Assembly (NCBI GenBank): GCA_022396035.1
Contig: JAIOXO010000011.1
Span: 1 to 52,006, forward strand
Direction: 5' to 3'
Length of the DNA: 52,006 nt
DNA from: Actinomycetes bacterium
GTDB taxonomy: Bacteria; Actinomycetota; Humimicrobiia; Humimicrobiales; Humimicrobiaceae
The notes under the pieces were generated by a model. That model saw nothing but the letters and a program-made list of their open reading frames with translations, was not told where the DNA came from and did no database searches. The position numbers and the translations under genes were made by a program. Shown one piece after another: positions 30,528 to 52,006 of this stretch (position 1 is its first letter; each line of letters begins with the position of its first letter).

Positions 30528-30626
30528 GTGTTTGGGGAGTAAATATTTCTTTTTATAGCTAGGAAAGCCTGGGACATACATTAGGAGTTTTAATATATAG
30601 GTTTAGACTTATTAAAGGCTATTAAA

Positions 30627-32510
30627 TTGGCAAGGCTTAAATTAGAAAGAAAATACCTATTTGCTTATATTCTGTTATTTTTAGGCATTGCTATTATATT
30701 GCGGGAATATATAGGAGGCAGGTCCCTGTGGGTAGATGAAGCTATGCTGGCTTTGAATATGGACCGGTCTTTTATGGACCTGGCCAGGCCATTAGATTAT
30801 AATCAGACCGCACCCTTATTATTCTTGTTTCTCTCTAAATTTTTTACTTTATTATTTGGAATATCTGATTACTCTTTGAGAATAACCCCGTTACTTTTTG
30901 GGTTGGGCTCCCTTTATTTGTTTTTTCTTATCTCCAAGAGATTATTTAAACCCTTGCCAGCGGCCATATCCATGCTTCTTTTTATTACTTCATACCGTCT
31001 AATTTATTATGCTAATGAATTTAAACATTATTCTGCCGATGTATTTTTTTCATTATTATTCTTGTATTTCTTTCTGCTGATAAAAGAGAATGGCTTTGAC
31101 CTAAGAAATTGGATAGTAATAACTATAGTAGGGCTGGTCGCCATATGGTTTTCTTTTAGCGCCATTATTATAGTTATGCTGTTTGCCGCAGTTTCACTGA
31201 CATGGCTTATTAAACAAAGAGAAAAAAGAGGATTAATCTTTTTTGCGGCGAGTACAGTCCTATGGGGATTAAATATTCTGGCTGAATATGTTTTGGTTTA
31301 CCTGGGTAATCCTAATTTTTCTTTTGAGCCTCTACATGATTACTGGAGGGGAGGATTCATGCCCTTTCCTCCTACTAATATACAGGATCTGTTTTGGTTG
31401 CCTAAAACCATTAAGGATTTTTTCATTTATATTACCAATACAGATACCATACTAACTGGCAGGTTTCCGGTAATTATTGATATCTACGCTTATGTGTTTA
31501 TAGCTTTTTTTCTCTTGGGTACTATATTTCTGATCAAACACAAAAAAATTCATGTGAGTGTATATGGGTGGGGAGTAATTCTGTTGGCCTTAATTGCTTC
31601 GGCTGCAGGGGTTATTCCTTTTGGAGACCGTCTTGTACTATACCTGGTTCCTCTGGTACTGTTGGTATGCGCATATGGAATATATTTAACTTATGGGTGG
31701 GTAAAAAAAGCCCGTAAAAGTCTGGCTATAATTTTTTTAGTTGTATTATTTTTCCTGCCCTCCATACCCAAGGCGTATCATCTGGTGGAGCCTACTTACA
31801 AAGTGGAGTTAAAATCAGTTATTAATTATTATTTAGAGAACAGAAAAGAAGAAGACAAGATATATGTATATATTGACCAGGATACTTATTATCCGCCCCA
31901 GTTTTACTTCTATACCGGAGAAAATTTTGATTTTACCAATATGGAAGGTAGCAAGAAAAAGGATCTCCAACAACTGAAGGGAGAGATTTTAGGCCATGAG
32001 AGGGTGTGGACCATAGGCCCGCTTCAGGGGCTGGAGGATTACGGACAAAAATTAGATAGCTACAGTATTCAGACACTGGCCTCCAGATGGTCTTTTGATT
32101 TTTTACGGGAAGATATAGTTTATTTAAACCAGCCTAATGCTGAAATAAAGTTTTATGATTTCAGGCAGTATGAATTGGAGGATCTAATTGCACATATTTA
32201 CAAGCATGGAGGTGATATACCCAATCCGGAACAGCAGCAGCTGTGGGTAAGAAGGATTTTAACTGACCCCAATGAAATGTATGATCTAGTTCTGGAGGCT
32301 TTAGTGGAGGGTAATTCTGGTGCAACCGATAAGGAATTTGTTAGAGCTATTTATATGGGCCTTCTGCAGCGGGAGCCTGATGTCGGCGGTCTTGAATATT
32401 GGTTATCGGAGCTGGAAGCTAAAGTGGGTAGGGATAAGGTAGCTGCAAGAATTATGGATTCGGCAGAATTTAAAGCAGTGATGCAAAGGCATGGGTTACT
32501 TTTCGATTAA
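30627..32510 (+). CDS. GT-C membrane glycosyltransferase with C-terminal DUF4214
   Basis: The 627-residue protein has about 11 membrane helices. The first outer loop carries SLWVDEAMLAL near residues 33-43, where the Asp-Glu pair fits the GT-C catalytic acid site. A soluble C-terminal region follows from about residue 400. The last ~65 residues (about 560-627; FVRAIYMGLLQREPDVGGLEYWLSELE) are a DUF4214 domain like those of the two secreted hydrolases. Its start is TTG 30627 with a weak AAAGG. It likely adds a sugar from a lipid-phosphate donor on the outer face. Confidence 0.85.
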   Translation: MARLKLERKYLFAYILLFLGIAIILREYIGGRSLWVDEAMLALNMDRSFMDLARPLDYNQTAPLLFLFLSKFFTLLFGISDYSLRITPLLFGLGSLYLFFLISKRLFKPLPAAISMLLFITSYRLIYYANEFKHYSADVFFSLLFLYFFLLIKENGFDLRNWIVITIVGLVAIWFSFSAIIIVMLFAAVSLTWLIKQREKRGLIFFAASTVLWGLNILAEYVLVYLGNPNFSFEPLHDYWRGGFMPFPPTNIQDLFWLPKTIKDFFIYITNTDTILTGRFPVIIDIYAYVFIAFFLLGTIFLIKHKKIHVSVYGWGVILLALIASAAGVIPFGDRLVLYLVPLVLLVCAYGIYLTYGWVKKARKSLAIIFLVVLFFLPSIPKAYHLVEPTYKVELKSVINYYLENRKEEDKIYVYIDQDTYYPPQFYFYTGENFDFTNMEGSKKKDLQQLKGEILGHERVWTIGPLQGLEDYGQKLDSYSIQTLASRWSFDFLREDIVYLNQPNAEIKFYDFRQYELEDLIAHIYKHGGDIPNPEQQQLWVRRILTDPNEMYDLVLEALVEGNSGATDKEFVRAIYMGLLQREPDVGGLEYWLSELEAKVGRDKVAARIMDSAEFKAVMQRHGLLFD

Positions 32511-43471: not shown

Positions 43472-45091
43472 ATGAATCAAATTTATGTAGTAGCAAAAAG
43501 GGTATTTAAAGCTTATAGAGAGAAAAGTTTTTTTAGTTTTTTAAAAAGCATTTTTGCCTATATTTTTAGGGGGTTCCAACCAAAAAAGTATAATTTTGGC
43601 ATCAACCAAGGTAGGAAAGTTTTTTATATTGATTATTTTAGCCCAGATAACTCTAATTTTTACTGGCTTAAAGCCTTCCGGAAATTTAGAAAGACGATAA
43701 CTTTCGATATAATTAGAGAAGATATGGCATTTCTTAATAAAAAAATAATGAATTTTAAACCTAATCACGTCCATTTGGGCGGTAGCGTTAAAGATAATAT
43801 GATATCATCAGAATTTCTTTCTGATCTTAAAAAAAAATTAAATTGCACTATTTCTGTGTTTTATGGAGATGCAATATATTCGTCCTATCACTGCGAGTTG
43901 GCAAAAGTTTCAAACTATATCTATATATCCAACAAGACCCATATTAAGGTAAATAAAGGAAAGGGGTTTAATAATTTTAAATATATGCCTTGCCCAACGG
44001 AGCCGGATGTGTTTAAGCATTATAAAAGTAGGAAAGCATATGATGTGCTATTTATAGGAAATAACAATCAAGTCTTACGGTTGCCTTTGCTAAAGAAACT
44101 ATCACGTTTATTCAATGTCAAAGTAATTGGATCTGCTTGGGAAAACACTGGTATTAATTTTGGAAATCCGGTTTATGGTAAGGGGTTTAGTAAATATTGC
44201 AGTAAAGCAAAGATAAATATTGGAATTCTTGATCCAAAACATACTAAACTTGAGGCATATTTTTCTAATCGTTTAATTAATACCTTAGCTACCGGTTCTT
44301 TTTATATCCAACGATATACTCCAGGGTTGGAGAAAGTTTTTACTAATAGAAAACATTTAGTTTGGTATACTAGAGAAAATGAATTAATTGATCTTATAAA
44401 GTTTTACTTAGTAAATGGAGAAGAAAGGAATAAAATTGCCATTAAAGGCCAGAAGGAAGTTTATAAGAAATATACTTATGAAAAAAGTGTAAAGAAGATT
44501 TTAATAGATTCAGAAAAAAGTGAACTTGATAAAGACTGGTGTGAAAACTTAAATAAATTATCAAAGAAAGGAGATAGATTTTCACTAGAATGGTATCAAA
44601 GTCATATTATAACAAAGGAGCTTTTAAATAGAGATGTTTTGGAAAAAAAAATTATAGATTTAGGGTGTGGAATAGGGGTAAGAGCGTACCTAGTGGCTAA
44701 AAAGAATAAAAATATTGAAATAATAGGTGTAGATGCTTCGGAATATGCAGTCCAATATGCTATCAATAACTTTAAACTCCCAAATTTACAATTTGTTGTT
44801 ACTGATATATTAAAATTACCTTTTGACGATTTAACTTTTGACAATGCGTATATGTTAGCGGTCATAGAGCACATTAAAGATACTGGAGCTCTTTTAAAGG
44901 AAGTGAAGCGAATTATAAAACCTAAGGGTAAGCTTTTTTTATCTGTGACAGAAAAAGATTATCATAGTGATCCCCATCATGTTCATGTTTTTACAAAGAG
45001 AAATTTAAAAAGTATTGTTACCGCTAATGGTTTAAAAGTTTTGGATTTATATGTCAAAGAACATATCATTTTTACAATCATTGAAATTTAA
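43472..45091 (+). CDS. Fusion: CgeB-like glycosyltransferase - SAM methyltransferase
   Basis: The 539-residue protein has an N-terminal CgeB-like glycosyltransferase (about 40-350; DVLFIGNNNQ, LINTLATGSFYIQRYTPGLEKVF) and a C-terminal class I methyltransferase (about 370-539). The SAM-binding motif I is DLGCGIG at 396-402, followed by GVDASEYAVQYA and IEHIKDTGALLKEVKRIIKPKG. It could add a sugar and then methylate it, or cap a chain end. No frameshift is seen at the joint. Confidence 0.87.
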   Translation: MNQIYVVAKRVFKAYREKSFFSFLKSIFAYIFRGFQPKKYNFGINQGRKVFYIDYFSPDNSNFYWLKAFRKFRKTITFDIIREDMAFLNKKIMNFKPNHVHLGGSVKDNMISSEFLSDLKKKLNCTISVFYGDAIYSSYHCELAKVSNYIYISNKTHIKVNKGKGFNNFKYMPCPTEPDVFKHYKSRKAYDVLFIGNNNQVLRLPLLKKLSRLFNVKVIGSAWENTGINFGNPVYGKGFSKYCSKAKINIGILDPKHTKLEAYFSNRLINTLATGSFYIQRYTPGLEKVFTNRKHLVWYTRENELIDLIKFYLVNGEERNKIAIKGQKEVYKKYTYEKSVKKILIDSEKSELDKDWCENLNKLSKKGDRFSLEWYQSHIITKELLNRDVLEKKIIDLGCGIGVRAYLVAKKNKNIEIIGVDASEYAVQYAINNFKLPNLQFVVTDILKLPFDDLTFDNAYMLAVIEHIKDTGALLKEVKRIIKPKGKLFLSVTEKDYHSDPHHVHVFTKRNLKSIVTANGLKVLDLYVKEHIIFTIIEI

Positions 45092-45117
45092 TAAAAAAAA
45101 TTATCATAGCGCTGGGA

Positions 45118-45145
45118 TGCAATTATATTGTAAATATAATTTGCA
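45118..45145. promoter_or_regulatory. Inverted repeat before the aminotransferase gene
   Basis: TGCAATTATATT (45118-45129) and AATATAATTTGCA (45133-45145) are complementary apart from one bulged A, with a 3-nt loop. The structure lies 26 bp before the ATG at 45171. It could be an operator or an RNA hairpin near the ribosome binding site. Confidence 0.4.
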
Positions 45146-45170
45146 TTAAAATATATTAAAGAGGTGTACA

Positions 45171-46277
45171 ATGATCCAAGTATTTAAACCATTTATGGGT
45201 GAAGAAGAAGTAAAAGCTGTAGAAGAAGTCATAAAGTCAGGCTGGCTAGGGCTGGGTCCTAAGACGGTAGAGTTTGAGAAAAAATTTGCAAAATATATAG
45301 GTACAAAATTTTCAGTTGGCTTGAATTCTGCAACATCGGCTTTAGACCTTGCACTTAAATTGTTACATATTAACCATGGAGATGAAGTAATTGTTCCTAC
45401 AATGACTTTTGTGTCAACTGCTCATGTTGTTACTTATAATTTAGCTACCCCCATTTTTGTAGATATAGACCCAAAATCATTATTGATTAATTTTGAAGAT
45501 CTTAAAGCAAAAATTACTTCAAGGACAAAAGCTGTTATACCAGTACATTATAGTGGGAGAGCAGTTGATATAGACAAATTAAGAGAAATTGTTGGAGAGA
45601 TTCCTATAGTTGAAGATGCTGCTCATGCATGTGGATCAATTTATAAAGATAAAAAGTGTGGAAGTCTAGGTGATATAGGATGTTTTAGCTTTCATGCTGT
45701 TAAAAATTTAGCAACAGGTGATGGAGGTGCATTAACTTTAAATAATCAGAAATGGTATGAAAGATCTAAAAAATTACGGTGGTTAGGTATTGACAAAGGA
45801 ACTTGGGATAGAACTGAACTCGATAAATCATATTGGTGGCAATATTTTGTTGATGAAATCGGATTGAAATGCCATATGAACGATATTAGTGCAAGTATTG
45901 GCTTGATCCAGTTAAAAAAATTAGACTCTATGAATACTAAAAGGAAAAAGATTGCAGAGGAATATACAAATGCTTTTAGAAATGTTGAATGGATAGAAAC
46001 TCCGCTAGATGATGACAATATTTATCAATCTTCTTGGCATATATATTGCATTAAATGTGAAAATAGAGATGAGTTAAGCTCATATCTCAAATCGAAGGGA
46101 ATTGCTACAGGAGTTCATTATAAACCAATTCATCAATATAAATGTTATGGTAATACACCTAGCTTGCCAATTGCTGAGAGAGTAGCGGAAAAAATACTTA
46201 GCTTACCAATATATCCAGGTTTATCAGACAGGGAAGTTGATTACATTATTGAATCCATTTTGAGTTTTAAAGACTGA
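45171..46277 (+). CDS. DegT/DnrJ/EryC1 PLP-dependent sugar aminotransferase
   Basis: The 368-residue fold-type I aminotransferase has GLNSATSALDLAL near 54-66, EDAAHACG near 149-156 and the PLP-binding Lys178 in SFHAVKNLATGDGG. It would aminate a UDP-4-keto-6-deoxy sugar at C4, matching the product of the CapD/PglF-like dehydratase at 14.2 kb. AGAGG precedes the ATG. It is followed by a GNAT acetyltransferase gene that could acetylate the new amino group. Confidence 0.94.
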   Translation: MIQVFKPFMGEEEVKAVEEVIKSGWLGLGPKTVEFEKKFAKYIGTKFSVGLNSATSALDLALKLLHINHGDEVIVPTMTFVSTAHVVTYNLATPIFVDIDPKSLLINFEDLKAKITSRTKAVIPVHYSGRAVDIDKLREIVGEIPIVEDAAHACGSIYKDKKCGSLGDIGCFSFHAVKNLATGDGGALTLNNQKWYERSKKLRWLGIDKGTWDRTELDKSYWWQYFVDEIGLKCHMNDISASIGLIQLKKLDSMNTKRKKIAEEYTNAFRNVEWIETPLDDDNIYQSSWHIYCIKCENRDELSSYLKSKGIATGVHYKPIHQYKCYGNTPSLPIAERVAEKILSLPIYPGLSDREVDYIIESILSFKD

Positions 46278-46363
46278 AATGGTTAGAGGTATAAAATGAT
46301 TTAAATGTTAAAAAAATAATGGTAATTTTTATTTCAATAATAAATAAAGGTTGGTGAAGTAAT

Positions 46364-46867
46364 TTGAAAATATTTCCATTAACCGAGGGGTACCTAGAGT
46401 TTGTAAGAAAGGTTAGAAATAATTCTCTTATAAATAAATATCTTTTTACTGATGCTAATATTTCAAAAGAGGACCAAGAAAAATGGTATAGACGATTCCT
46501 AAAGGATAAAAGCCATTTAGTATTTATTGCTTTTGACAATGTACCAGTTGGTTATGGACAAATAAAGAACATTGATTATTTAAAGAATTCTTGTGAGTTA
46601 GGGTTTTGTATTACCCCTGAACATCAAGGTAAAGGCTATGGGAAAATTCTAATAAAAAAATTAATTGGGTATGTTTTTAGGGAATTAGATTTAAACTATA
46701 TTTATCTAGAAGTGTTTACTGATAATATAAAGGCAATTGAGTTGTACAAGAAATGTGGGTTTGTAGAAGAAAAGATTTTAGATAAAAGAATATTAAAAAA
46801 CAGTGATATTAAAAATATTTTGGTAATGAGCTTAATGAGAAAAGGAAAAATTAATGATAAGGATTAA
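46364..46867 (+). CDS. GNAT N-acetyltransferase (PseH/RimJ-like)
   Basis: The 167-residue protein has the GNAT core, with the acetyl-CoA-binding HQGKGYGKIL at about 85-94 and the NIKAIELYKKCGFVEE C-terminal signature. PseH-type members acetylate UDP-4-amino sugars, which fits the upstream aminotransferase. The start is TTG 46364 with GGTGAAG upstream. Protein acetylation is an alternative but less likely in this locus. Confidence 0.88.
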   Translation: MKIFPLTEGYLEFVRKVRNNSLINKYLFTDANISKEDQEKWYRRFLKDKSHLVFIAFDNVPVGYGQIKNIDYLKNSCELGFCITPEHQGKGYGKILIKKLIGYVFRELDLNYIYLEVFTDNIKAIELYKKCGFVEEKILDKRILKNSDIKNILVMSLMRKGKINDKD

Positions 46868-47015
46868 AATAAAAGAATTATCATTGTAATAAAACTTGCT
46901 TAGCCTCGCATACTGTCTGGTAATATAATTATAAAAGCTTAGTATTTATCATAAAAATTGATATTAATAAAAAAATTAATTAATTCTAACCAATTCACGA
47001 GGTAGTTAAGAAATT

Positions 47016-47954
47016 ATGGATAAAGCAAAATCCCCAAAAGTTAGTGTTATTATACCTACCTATAATAGGGCTAGTTTGATACCAAGAGCTATAGAAAGTG
47101 TACTTGCTCAAAACTATAATGGTATTGAGATCATTATAGTAGATGATGGTTCAACAGATAATACTAAAGAAGTTATAAATAAATTAAAGGATAAAAAAAT
47201 AAAATATATACAGCATAAAGAAAATATGGGCGGAGCTGCCGCTAGAAATACAGGAATTAAGATGGCTAAAGCTGAATATATAGCGTTTCTTGATAGTGAT
47301 GATGAGTGGTTTCCTAAGAAACTTGAAACGCAGATAAAAGTCTTTAATGATATGAATGATGATACAGGGGTAGTTTATTCTGCTTTTTGGAAAATACACG
47401 AAGGTTGTAAAAGTTATAAACCAAACAAAATAATAAAGAAAAAAGAAGGATGGATTCATGAAGAATTGTTGAACGGTAATTTTGTAACACTCCAGGCTGC
47501 ATTATTAAAAAAAGACTGTTTTAGTAAAGCAGGATTATTCGATGTGTCTATTCAGAGGCTACATGATTGGGAATTATGGTTAAGAATATCCAGATACTTT
47601 AAATTTAAATTTATTGATGAGCCACTGGTAAATGTTTATTATACGCCTATTTCTATTTCTACTAATCACAATGCACTAATAGAATCTAGTAAAAAAATAT
47701 TAAGAAAACATTTTTCAGAGTTTAGTAAAAATAAAAAAATACTATCTAAAAGGTATTTTTATATAGGAAAATTTATGGCTGAAGCCCATGATACGAAAAA
47801 TGGGAAAAAATATTTTAAAAAAGCGATAAAGGCCAATCCTTTAAATATGCAAGCTTATTTATTGTTCTTAAATTCTTTACTGGGCGGAAAATTGTATACA
47901 TCTAATTATAGAATATTGAAATTTTTAAAAAGTAAAGTAAGGAATATCCAATGA
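47016..47954 (+). CDS. GT2-family glycosyltransferase
   Basis: The 312-residue inverting GT-A enzyme has SVIIPTYNRASLIPRAIESVL, VDDGSTDNT and the metal motif in AFLDSDDEWFPKKLE near 92-106. DWELWLR near 185-191 is the usual acceptor-domain mark. GAGG lies before the ATG. The gene overlaps the next GT2 gene by the ATGA junction, indicating coupled synthesis. Confidence 0.92.
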   Translation: MDKAKSPKVSVIIPTYNRASLIPRAIESVLAQNYNGIEIIIVDDGSTDNTKEVINKLKDKKIKYIQHKENMGGAAARNTGIKMAKAEYIAFLDSDDEWFPKKLETQIKVFNDMNDDTGVVYSAFWKIHEGCKSYKPNKIIKKKEGWIHEELLNGNFVTLQAALLKKDCFSKAGLFDVSIQRLHDWELWLRISRYFKFKFIDEPLVNVYYTPISISTNHNALIESSKKILRKHFSEFSKNKKILSKRYFYIGKFMAEAHDTKNGKKYFKKAIKANPLNMQAYLLFLNSLLGGKLYTSNYRILKFLKSKVRNIQ

Positions 47955-48934
47955 AGCATCCTTTGGTTTCTATAATTACCCCTGCCTATAATAGCGAAAA
48001 GTTTATATCTACCTGTATTGAAAGTGTTATAAATCAGACTTATAGATATTGGGAGCAAATAATTATAGATGATGGTTCTGATGACAGAACTCCTGAGATA
48101 ATATCTCGTTACAATGATAAGAGGATAAAATATTTTAAACAAAAAAACCTTGGAATACATAGGTTACATGAAACTTATAATAAAGCCCTTAATATTTCAG
48201 AGGGTTCTCTCATCGCTATTCTGGAAGGAGATGATTATTGGCCGCTCAATAAATTGGAAAAGCAAATACCTGTATTTGAAAATAATGAGATTATTTTATC
48301 CTGGGGAAGAGGTTTACAAGTAAATGAAAATAATGAAATAATAGAAAAGATTAGGTTCCATAATTTAAGTAGATCTGTTCTAAATAATTATCCAATTGGT
48401 ATAGCCATAAATAAGTTATTATTAGATAATTTTATTTCTCCTTCTTCTACAATAATGATAAGAAAAAATTCCTTAATGTCTATTGGGGGCTTTAAGCAAT
48501 ACCCAAATTCATATTGCGTAGACTTACCAACTTGGTTGGAACTTGCTTTAAAGGGTAGATTTTTTTACAAGAATGAATTATTAGGTTATTGGAGGAGACA
48601 CCCAGATCAAAATACTAATCGCCGAAAAATTGAATTGATTAAGAACCGTGTACGCTATAAACTATATTTTGTTGATTCCCTAGATGCCAAACAGAGAAAT
48701 AAATTAAAAATAAAAAGGAAAATTATTGAAGCAAAACACCACATTCAAATGGGAAGATTTTTTATTTTAAACAAAAAAAGGAAAGAAGCGAGAAAGGAGT
48801 TTATATTAGCATTCCAAAAAGGATCTTTTACCTTAAAATTAAAAGCTATATTAGGTATGATGGTTAGTTGTTTTAGAAGAACTAATATTGAATATTTAAA
48901 CAAAATGTTTGTAAAAATAAAAAATTCTTTTTAA
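47951..48934 (+). CDS. GT2-family glycosyltransferase
   Basis: The 327-residue enzyme has SIITPAYNSEKFISTCIESVI, IDDGSDDRTPEII and the divalent-metal region AILEGDDYWPLNKLE near 88-102. LPTWLELALKGRFFY follows, then a Lys/Arg-rich C-terminus that may bind the membrane surface. It is coupled to the preceding GT2 by a 4-bp overlap. The sugar is unknown. Confidence 0.92.
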   Translation: MKHPLVSIITPAYNSEKFISTCIESVINQTYRYWEQIIIDDGSDDRTPEIISRYNDKRIKYFKQKNLGIHRLHETYNKALNISEGSLIAILEGDDYWPLNKLEKQIPVFENNEIILSWGRGLQVNENNEIIEKIRFHNLSRSVLNNYPIGIAINKLLLDNFISPSSTIMIRKNSLMSIGGFKQYPNSYCVDLPTWLELALKGRFFYKNELLGYWRRHPDQNTNRRKIELIKNRVRYKLYFVDSLDAKQRNKLKIKRKIIEAKHHIQMGRFFILNKKRKEARKEFILAFQKGSFTLKLKAILGMMVSCFRRTNIEYLNKMFVKIKNSF

Positions 48935-49112
48935 ATTTTTATTTCTCGTATATACAGAACGTATATCTAATAGTAAGTTTGGCCAAGGGTGTAAAAGATA
49001 AGTTTATGTTTGATATACAATTATTTGAAAATCCTAAATATTAATAAAGGCAAAGGTAAGAATTTAGTAAGAATATATTTAGAAATTATTATTTTAAAAA
49101 GGTGGAAAATTT

Positions 49113-50423
49113 ATGCCCGTTAAAAATTTATTTAAAGATCTTGAAAATAAAAATAAAAAAATAGCATTAATAGGGTTAGGTTATGTAGGATTTCCTTTGC
49201 TTATGAATTTAAGTAAATACTTTAAAACAATAGGTTATGATATAGATGAGACGAAAGTTAAAAAGCTAAAGAATAAAAATAATATAGTTGAAAAGAATAA
49301 TGAAGGTACTATAGACTGTGTAATAACCTCGGATGAAAAGAATTTAGAGACTGCAAATTTTTTTATAATAGCAGTACCAACACCGATAGATAAACATAAT
49401 GATCCAGATCTTAGCGCAGTTCTAAATGCTACTAGGATTGTTGGTAAGAATATGCCTAAGAACTCAATAGTTGTTTATGAGTCAACTGTATACCCTGGTG
49501 CTACTGAGGAGGTGTGTATCCCTCTCCTCGAAAAAGTATCAGGATACAAAAATAAAACTGATTTCCATATAGGATATTCACCTGAAAGGATAAATCCTGG
49601 TGATAAAATACATACTCTAGAAAATATTGTAAAAGTTGTTTCAGCACAGGATAGGTTAACATTAGATATAATTGAAAAGGTTTACTCTAAAATTATTGAG
49701 GCGGGTACATATAGAGCAGAGAGTATTAAAATTGCTGAAGCAGCAAAAGTAATTGAGAATATTCAGAGGGATTTAAACATAGCACTTGTTAATGAGTTTG
49801 CAATAATATTTTCAAAATTAGGACTTGATACAACAAAGATTATTAATGCAGCTAACACTAAGTGGAATTTTTTAAATTTTAAGCCAGGATTGGTAGGAGG
49901 ACACTGTATTGGTGTAGATCCATACTATTTAACCTATAAAGCTCAAGAGCTTGGATATCATACAGAAATAATTCTAGCTGGAAGAAGAATAAATGATAAT
50001 ATGAGCAATTTTATTGGCAATGAAATATTGAAGAGGTTATTAAATAACCATGATTCTATAGGTAGATTAAAATTAGCTCTATTTGGGGCAACTTTTAAAG
50101 AAAATACACAAGATGTAAGGAATTCTAAGATAATTGATTTATATAATTATTTTATCCAGTATGGAATTAACGCTTTAATTTATGATCCTGTAGCGGATAG
50201 AACAGAGGTATTAGAAAATTATAATATTAATCTTATAGAGTATAATCATATAAAAGATATAGATGCAGCAGTTTTCTGTGTTGCTCATGATTGTTTTAAA
50301 AATATTGATTTATTAGAATTAAAATCTAAGTTTAGAAATAAGAAGCCTTATATATTTGATATAAAGGGAATATTTCAAGAAACAATAGTTGAGGAAATTG
50401 GATATAGATACTGGAGGTTATAA
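49113..50423 (+). CDS. UDP-N-acetylhexosamine 6-dehydrogenase (WbpO/TviB-type)
   Basis: The 436-residue enzyme has the NAD loop ALIGLGYVGFPL (18-29) and the catalytic Cys265 in GGHCIGVDPYYL, the marker of the WbpO/TviB/WecC branch. ESTVYPGATEEVC and AKVIENIQRDLNIALVNE also fit this branch. It would oxidise UDP-GalNAc or UDP-GlcNAc to the uronic acid. A WbpP-like epimerase follows at once, giving the WbpP-WbpO pair known from O-antigen loci. AAAGGTGG lies before the ATG. Confidence 0.94.
   Translation: MPVKNLFKDLENKNKKIALIGLGYVGFPLLMNLSKYFKTIGYDIDETKVKKLKNKNNIVEKNNEGTIDCVITSDEKNLETANFFIIAVPTPIDKHNDPDLSAVLNATRIVGKNMPKNSIVVYESTVYPGATEEVCIPLLEKVSGYKNKTDFHIGYSPERINPGDKIHTLENIVKVVSAQDRLTLDIIEKVYSKIIEAGTYRAESIKIAEAAKVIENIQRDLNIALVNEFAIIFSKLGLDTTKIINAANTKWNFLNFKPGLVGGHCIGVDPYYLTYKAQELGYHTEIILAGRRINDNMSNFIGNEILKRLLNNHDSIGRLKLALFGATFKENTQDVRNSKIIDLYNYFIQYGINALIYDPVADRTEVLENYNINLIEYNHIKDIDAAVFCVAHDCFKNIDLLELKSKFRNKKPYIFDIKGIFQETIVEEIGYRYWRL
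50413..50417 (+). promoter_or_regulatory. Shine-Dalgarno site pointing to an AUA start
   Basis: GGAGG lies inside the end of the dehydrogenase gene and is 8 nt before ATA 50426-50428. No ATG, GTG or TTG is in the epimerase frame between the in-frame TAG (50404-50406) and TTG 50528. The site supports initiation at AUA. Confidence 0.55.
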
Positions 50424-50425
50424 CA

Positions 50426-51436
50426 ATAGAAAACATATCTTTAAAAAATAGTCCAGAAGTTAAAGATTTAAATATACTTATTACTGGAGTAGCAGGATTT
50501 ATTGGTTCCAATCTTTTAGAATTCTTTTTGAAAAAAGATTTTAGGGTAGTTGGAATTGATAATTTTTCAACAGGTACTGAGAGTAATATTGATATTGCTA
50601 TAAAAAACGCATCTAGATATAGGAAAGATTTAAATTTTACCTTTGTGAAAGGAGATATAAGAAGTTATAAGGATTGTGAGAAAGTTACAAGAAAAATAGA
50701 TGTGGTATTCCATCAAGCTGCGCTAGGTTCAGTACAGAGATCCCTGGAAGAACCAATTGAAGTTAATGAAGTAAATGTATGTGGAACTATGAATATGCTG
50801 AAAACTTCAATTGACAATAATGTAAAAAAATTTATCTTTGCTTCATCTTCATCTGTATATGGGGATTCAGAGAAATTGCCTAAAATAGAAGAAATGCCAC
50901 TTAATCCAAAATCAATATATGCTGCTACAAAAGTAGCTTCTGAGTATTATGTAAGGTTGTTTTATAGACTCTATGGACTTAAAACAATATCACTAAGGTA
51001 TTTTAATGTTTTTGGAAAAAGACAGAACCCGGACTCAATATATTCTGCAGTAATCCCTATATTTTTAAAGAATTTAAGCTTAAATAAGAAACTCTCAGTA
51101 TTTGGAGATGGAGAACAAGGTAGGGATTTTACCCATATAGACAATGTTGTTTATGCTAATTTACTTTCAATGGTTTCTCAAAATCATAAAACGTATGGCA
51201 ATTTTTATAATGTAGCTTGTGGGGAGATAATTAGCTTAAATGAAATGATTAAATTCTTAGAAAAAAAATTGAATAGAAAAATAGATGTTTTTTATAAAAA
51301 TAAAAGGAAAGGAGATGTTGATAAAAGCTTAGCATCTTTAAAGAAAATAAGGGAAGATCTTGGATATAAACCGGTGAAAAAATTCTATAGAGGATTAGTT
51401 GATTTAATAAAGGTATTACAATTGGGAAATGCCTAA
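50426..51436 (+). CDS. UDP-GlcNAc/GalNAc C4-epimerase (WbpP-like), probable AUA start
   Basis: The extended SDR has ILITGVAGFIGSNLLEF (about 17-33), HQAALGSVQRS, ASSSSVYGD, YAATK as the Tyr-x3-Lys pair and LRYFNVFGKRQNPDS, all typical of WbpP/Gne. The NAD loop lies upstream of the first ordinary start codon (TTG 50528), so translation must begin earlier. ATA 50426, 8 nt after GGAGG, gives 336 residues with the 15-20-residue leader common in WbpP. A sequencing error remains possible. It is next to the WbpO-like gene, its usual partner. Confidence 0.88.
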   Translation: MENISLKNSPEVKDLNILITGVAGFIGSNLLEFFLKKDFRVVGIDNFSTGTESNIDIAIKNASRYRKDLNFTFVKGDIRSYKDCEKVTRKIDVVFHQAALGSVQRSLEEPIEVNEVNVCGTMNMLKTSIDNNVKKFIFASSSSVYGDSEKLPKIEEMPLNPKSIYAATKVASEYYVRLFYRLYGLKTISLRYFNVFGKRQNPDSIYSAVIPIFLKNLSLNKKLSVFGDGEQGRDFTHIDNVVYANLLSMVSQNHKTYGNFYNVACGEIISLNEMIKFLEKKLNRKIDVFYKNKRKGDVDKSLASLKKIREDLGYKPVKKFYRGLVDLIKVLQLGNA

Positions 51437-51655
51437 AGTCGAAGGTTCTATTTGGAAACAAAACTCATTGGAAATCATGGCTATTTTTGAATGATAAATG
51501 AAGGATATATACTCAAAAAATAAGAGAGTAGATTTTTTTATATATATAAAAATTATATAGAGAGAATATACTTTTTAAATTGAAAGAATTAAAAAAAGAT
51601 ATGTAAATTCTATTTAATTTCTTTAAAATAATATGTTTTAACCTTTTAAGCTTGG
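51437..51655. other. A+T-rich spacer after the epimerase gene
   Basis: This 219-bp spacer is very A+T-rich and has no credible coding frame or hairpin. It may hold the promoter of the next, incomplete gene. Confidence 0.4.
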
Positions 51656-52006
51656 ATGGAGTTGAATAATATTAGTATTTTAGAAAGTAATAAAATTCCT
51701 ATATATTATTTTCTTAAAGCTGGGGAGTATGGACATAGGTATATATTTAGAATAACATATGAGAACCAAAAGAATGCAGAAGAAGATTTTAAAAATTGCT
51801 CTAATAAAAAAAGTAGCCAACAGATAAAAAAAGAAATACTACTTATCCAAAATTATTGGAAATGTTATCCCCTTCACTATTTTAGATATTATTTATATAA
51901 AAAAGAAAAACAATTAAGTGATAAAGCACTGTTGAATTATATACCAGAATTCTTTTTCTATAGAGTTTATCTGCCTTTTTATGATGATCGGCGATACAAA
52001 GTTTTA
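51656..52006 (+). CDS. Partial gene, possibly sugar-transfer-associated ATP-grasp protein
   Basis: A frame of 117 codons opens at ATG 51656 and runs off the right edge. Residues about 72-117 (NYWKCYPLHYFRYYLYKK, then NYIPEFFFYRVYLP) resemble the N-terminal part of sugar-transfer-associated ATP-grasp proteins found in polysaccharide loci. The match is by general pattern only. There is no clear Shine-Dalgarno. The ATP-binding part would lie outside the window. Confidence 0.45.
   Translation, partial: MELNNISILESNKIPIYYFLKAGEYGHRYIFRITYENQKNAEEDFKNCSNKKSSQQIKKEILLIQNYWKCYPLHYFRYYLYKKEKQLSDKALLNYIPEFFFYRVYLPFYDDRRYKVL

Follow-up and report, generated by a model that had tools for sequence, protein, structure and literature searches.

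The window, a stretch of 52,006 nucleotides analysed over its whole length, is the complete contig C11 of the G000 genome (1.6 Mb, 40 contigs, 98% complete), of which 1,599,474 bases, all but 55, were read and 1,313 coding frames called. At the contig end, from 45000 to 52006, lies a polysaccharide block of 28% G+C, the first 40 kb and the genome as a whole each having 42%, as expected of an acquired island. This part of the contig carries a nucleotide-sugar dehydrogenase followed on the same strand by an epimerase, which we refer to as wbpP (Table 1). The former (49113-50423) is a TviB/WbpO-like UDP-sugar 6-dehydrogenase, with the TviB model as its best match at 412.9 bits, under the cut-off of 592. 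The epimerase matches PF01370 (E 1e-59), has the extended-SDR fold and retains the complete SDR motifs (TGVAGFIGS, SSSSVYGDS and YAATK); its closest solved relatives are WbpP, WbgU and TviC (E about 1e-77 to 1e-75). These UDP-GlcNAc(A) 4-epimerases are likewise paired with a TviB/WbpO-like dehydrogenase. The NCBIfam TviC model is the best of all models for the epimerase, but at 275.8 bits it stays under the equivalog cut-off of 760, and the substrate assignment is putative.

The epimerase frame runs TAG(50405) ATA CTG GAG GTT ATA ACA ATA(50426) GAA AAC ATA TCT TTA and holds no ATG, GTG or TTG between this TAG and TTG 50528, which is residue 35 when numbering begins at ATA 50426. The dinucleotide-binding loop, residues 20-29 in the same numbering, lies within the codons ATT ACT GGA GTA GCA GGA TTT ATT GGT TCC AAT. 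Homology to the solved WbgU and WbpP begins at residue 17-18, so that a protein begun at TTG 50528 would lack beta-1 together with the dinucleotide loop; this codon, inside the Rossmann fold and lacking a Shine-Dalgarno, was rejected. A usable Shine-Dalgarno, GGAGG, is embedded in the last codons of the dehydrogenase (RYWRL*), in front of ATA 50426. The earlier note had described a WbpP-like epimerase whose loop precedes the first ATG/GTG/TTG and had placed GGAGG 8 nt before ATA 50426; on re-reading, its frame, loop, spacing and first canonical codon are all correct, and the assignment to the WbpP/TviC-like 4-epimerases is supported. In what follows AUH denotes an AUU, AUC or AUA start codon.

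Table 1. Features of the dehydrogenase-epimerase junction, in positions of the window, and candidate AUH starts in other genes of the G000 genome
Feature	Position	Strand	Basis or remark
Nucleotide-sugar dehydrogenase, TviB/WbpO-like, ATG start	49113..50423	+	NDP-sugDHase subfamily model above cut-off
Upstream in-frame TAG closing the epimerase frame	50405..50407	+	Sequence reading
Shine-Dalgarno GGAGG, 8 nt before ATA 50426	50413..50417	+	Sequence reading
Proposed AUA start codon	50426..50428	+	Same column: AUA in G019; UUG in G021, G026 and G034
UDP-N-acetyl-hexosamine(uronate) 4-epimerase, WbpP/TviC/WbgU-like, 336 aa	50426..51436	+	Profile and structure-relative matches
TGVAGFIGSN dinucleotide-binding loop, upstream of first canonical start	50483..50512	+	Translation
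TTG, first ATG/GTG/TTG of the epimerase frame	50528..50530	+	Rejected as start
infC, ATT start candidate			G000
infB, ATT start candidate			G000
rsmD, ATT start candidate			G000
ruvB, ATT or ATC start candidate			G000
nadE, ATA or ATT start candidate			G000
hypE, ATC start candidate			G000
ABC exporter, ATA start candidate			Read in G000 only
TolB-like protein, ATT start candidate			Read in G000 only; signal-peptide-like N-terminus and Shine-Dalgarno
TPR/SLT lipoprotein, ATT start candidate			Read in G000 only; signal-peptide-like N-terminus and Shine-Dalgarno
MOSC protein, ATC start candidate			Read in G000 only

The epimerase is found in only six of 35 family genomes, and for wbpP itself AUA is observed in two of these six. 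The second is G019 (locus L004), from another genus, in which the protein is 64% identical and the frame intact; its junction reads TAA ATA CTG GAG GTT ATA AAA ATA AAT TTA GAT, with no canonical start and with ATA in the same column. Three sisters (G021, G026 and G034) have TTG in the exact column of ATA 50426, and G015 has a TTG start behind a longer spacer. The leader downstream of the start column is similar among the relatives (ENISLK, NLDSLK, ELSNLK, NLDQLT). The junction thus combines a conserved N-terminus with no AUG, GUG or UUG before it, a usable Shine-Dalgarno and a start column matched in relatives, and wbpP very probably starts at AUA 50426. This bears out the earlier note, which had taken AUA 50426 as the best start and had named comparison of the same junction in related genomes as a check; with ATA in G019 and TTG in four others, a base error or a frameshift joining an upstream start is unlikely.

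Other explanations of the junction fare less well. Initiation elsewhere in the frame, at another near-cognate codon (CTG 50411, GTT 50417, ATA 50420 or ATA 50435) is improbable. The conservation of CTG GAG among relatives might seem to favour it, as might the overlap of ATA 50420 with the dehydrogenase stop (ATAA), but CTG GAG is shared because these codons overlap the RYWRL* end of the dehydrogenase, and it is therefore no evidence for a CTG start. Neither CTG 50411 nor ATA 50420 has a Shine-Dalgarno within workable distance, and the TTG column of the sisters is matched by ATA 50426 only. Less probable still is a sequencing or assembly error that hides a true ATG (or GTG/TTG). The assembly is of metagenome type, and a single base change from ATA to ATG would yield a standard start; however, ATA recurs at this column in a separate assembly, from another genus, which makes such an error unlikely, and dozens of independent assemblies carry AUH in rsmD, nadE, ruvB and infC (below), with an interchange of U, C and A that errors would not produce. 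Loss of the start, leaving a pseudogene or a fragment expressed only from TTG 50528, would explain why a canonical start is missing in front of the domain, but we regard it as highly improbable given an intact 336-codon frame with full SDR motifs and an equally intact AUA relative at 64% identity. Fusion of the two proteins through a frameshift near the dehydrogenase end, an idea invited by the closeness of that end (50423) to the epimerase start and by the overlap of its last codons with the epimerase frame, can practically be dismissed, as TAG 50405 closes the frame and confines any shift to the last six codons, and the sisters, in which the stop has another position or, in G015, the spacer is long, start at an ordinary TTG.

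The AUA assigned to wbpP is not isolated, as candidate AUU, AUC and AUA starts recur in the genome and in the family, core genes included. For each coding frame we sought a coding signal, or a Shine-Dalgarno followed by AUH, upstream of the first canonical start, and about 11 genes including wbpP (near 1%) have a candidate AUH start with a conserved N-terminus upstream of the canonical one (Table 1). For nadE, hypE, infB, rsmD, infC, the ABC exporter and the MOSC protein, the match to the family model already starts ahead of the first canonical codon, and among 318 orthologue pairs between G000 and 400 kb of G002, infB and rsmD need AUH in both genomes. A census of the genome by Shine-Dalgarno only showed no enrichment of ATH over other codons, and the case for AUH starts therefore rests on homology. 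Translational coupling does not set the AUH-start genes apart and was rejected on that ground: they lie no closer to a preceding stop than genes do in general, and of 781 background genes 331 likewise have an upstream stop close to their first canonical start.

Several further loci came up in the scan. An apparent AUA start of prfB (C1 minus strand 167644-168690) was discarded, as it fits the well-known prfB frameshift layout, and C1-:115626, C9+:529 and several single-codon cases beside ATG were dropped as unsupported. At C1 minus strand 115626-116099 lies an SDR gene with its N-terminal part in another frame, through a frameshift or a sequence error. The window itself holds an ABC transporter frame (30594-32510) in which ATA stands 8 nt after AGGAG, with the first TTG 10 codons further on; AUA may be the start here too. 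In truB (G000 C2 about 48862-49782; L127 8862-9782) the MEKINLSHTNGIFLANKRSKISSYDLIREIKKVFF frame meets a run of nine T and then a stop, with the remainder (FFLNKIGHAGTLDPLA...) in another frame; G002 (C3 about 52957-53882) has an identical layout with the 9-T run, which looks like conserved slippage.

Conservation of the start column was followed in 29 family genomes, with codons for infC, ruvB and nadE read by eye from sequence contexts, and is strictest in rsmD. There the column is AUH in 29 of 29 (ATT in 12, ATA in nine, ATC in eight), usually directly after a stop, although in G017 and G018 a canonical codon occurs within the Shine-Dalgarno, 2-3 codons upstream. In all 25 outgroup genomes, drawn from the class and phylum, rsmD has a canonical start, and in 22 of them ATG, GTG or TTG occupies the same column; the exceptions have ATG one codon earlier (G060 and G046) or five codons earlier (G054). 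A tree built from concatenated RsmD, RuvB and NadE implies at least seven third-base changes in the family codon, none of them to G. This retention of AUH, with U, C and A swapping but G never appearing, suggests that a weak start is selected for.

Other genes show the same codons with less constancy. In nadE, AUH is present in 22 of the 29 genomes, ATG or GTG in six and GTA in one; the last, G029 (L393), has GTA in the start column behind AAAAGGAGTAAAAAA, and its close relatives have ATA. For infC the count is 23 of 29, the remaining six being genus g7 (L330, L335, L336, L339, L343 and L345), in which TTT or TTC stands in the start column behind AGGAGGTGTAAT and sisters have ATH; near the Shine-Dalgarno of these six loci there is no in-frame ATN start. 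Among the 28 family genomes classified for ruvB, 17 have AUH and 11 ATG, the latter figure including G019 and G005, in both of which upstream alternatives exist. ATT occurs in infB of five related genomes, most other family genomes having ATG or GTG, and hypE has AUH in G000, G002, G003 and G007 and mostly ATG in others.

An altered initiator tRNA was considered as the cause and rejected. The sole candidate gene (L166) looks ordinary, its anticodon being CAU and its anticodon stem having three G-C pairs, and AUH is therefore most simply read through a mismatch at the third position, as happens on infC of E. coli. As a separate observation, across all contigs of G000 there are only two tRNA genes with a CAT anticodon (the initiator in L166, the other in L204), and ATA is the commonest isoleucine codon of this genome at 46.6 per thousand; either a tRNA-Ile gene with a CAT anticodon is missing, or it lies in a gap, or the second CAT gene is misnamed.

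The family IF3 is full length, and all 29 sequences lack the arginines that correspond to R147 and R168 of E. coli. We take these two to belong to five functional arginines of the IF3 C-domain; a literature search on Arg147 and Arg168 gave nothing usable confirming a functional role. Both arginines are present in the E. coli, Geobacillus and T. thermophilus chains and in outgroup G045, these three solved structures and G045 being the sequences in which Arg147 was read. Arg168 is found in at least 20 of 26 outgroups, as judged by the DNA pattern G-R-x-M-x-[ML], which in each of these lies where the IF3 match ends and includes an arginine codon. The absence of these arginines and the AUH starts are correlated, and may represent one evolutionary event at the base of the family.

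Comparison across these genomes makes it highly likely that AUA 50426 is the start of wbpP, read by the ordinary initiator tRNA behind a strong Shine-Dalgarno, and is one case of a family habit, in which a minority of genes would start at AUU, AUC or AUA. During initiation on wbpP, GGAGG in the last codons of the dehydrogenase would place AUA 50426 in the P site, where the CAU anticodon of the initiator tRNA would pair with a third-position mismatch and formyl-methionine would be inserted; ribosomes terminating at the dehydrogenase stop, 2 nt before AUA, may help. The products of AUH genes would be expected at a low level, because IF3 partly rejects such starts in the bacteria studied, and to be responsive to the stringency of initiation. 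For wbpP, the earlier note had proposed that AUA could hold expression below that of the partner dehydrogenase.

This last property could have consequences for the initiation machinery itself. RsmD methylates G966, which is stacked on C34 of the initiator tRNA, and loss of RsmD relaxes initiation fidelity (PMC7949028). Given this role, the weak starts of rsmD, infC and infB are suggestive of feedback, and we put forward the hypothesis that AUH starts subject these three genes to feedback on initiation fidelity. A broader proposal is that the whole family has a relaxed and regulated start-codon system, in which IF3 would have lost R147 and R168, retained in other members of the phylum, weak AUH starts would form a standing class in about 1% of genes, and infC, infB and rsmD would make up a feedback loop on start-codon stringency, with wbpP, nadE and ruvB tied to it. 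We offer this only tentatively, as less likely than not. The question whether bacteria wire initiation-fidelity genes together via near-cognate starts is now testable, and the family-specific IF3 changes are a concrete molecular lead. More practically, genes with AUU, AUC or AUA starts are invisible to standard gene finders.

Taken alone, the AUA start of wbpP is a further example of an already known type of start; what goes beyond it is the family-wide AUH class, obligate in rsmD, alongside an altered IF3. The classic counterpart is infC with its IF3 autocontrol, which likewise has AUH behind a strong Shine-Dalgarno (AUU in E. coli, ATC in Streptomyces, AUA in S. aureus), whereas here AUH is also found on wbpP, rsmD, nadE, ruvB, infB, hypE and others. 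An earlier report of an AUU start likewise recovered the full-length protein only by assuming AUU, but concerned one gene in one species, without family-wide conservation. In Streptomyces the GTC start of sigR is IF3-repressed, and IF3 fidelity mutants raise its expression (PMC5472188); this case is likewise actinobacterial and joins a non-standard start to an extended ribosome-binding site, but is a single gene with GUC, whereas the third base here varies among U, C and A. Further precedents are the AUA starts of S. aureus infC, ccpN and citZ, mapped by Ribo-Ret, of which ccpN and citZ give about 10-30% of AUG in reporters (PMC13009471). In ccpN and citZ too AUA opens a metabolic or regulatory gene, and ccpN has a strong extended Shine-Dalgarno. 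The S. aureus starts were mapped by ribosome profiling and ours are deduced by comparison; that study reports four non-canonical starts in the S. aureus genome, against about 11 candidates here (PMC13009471).
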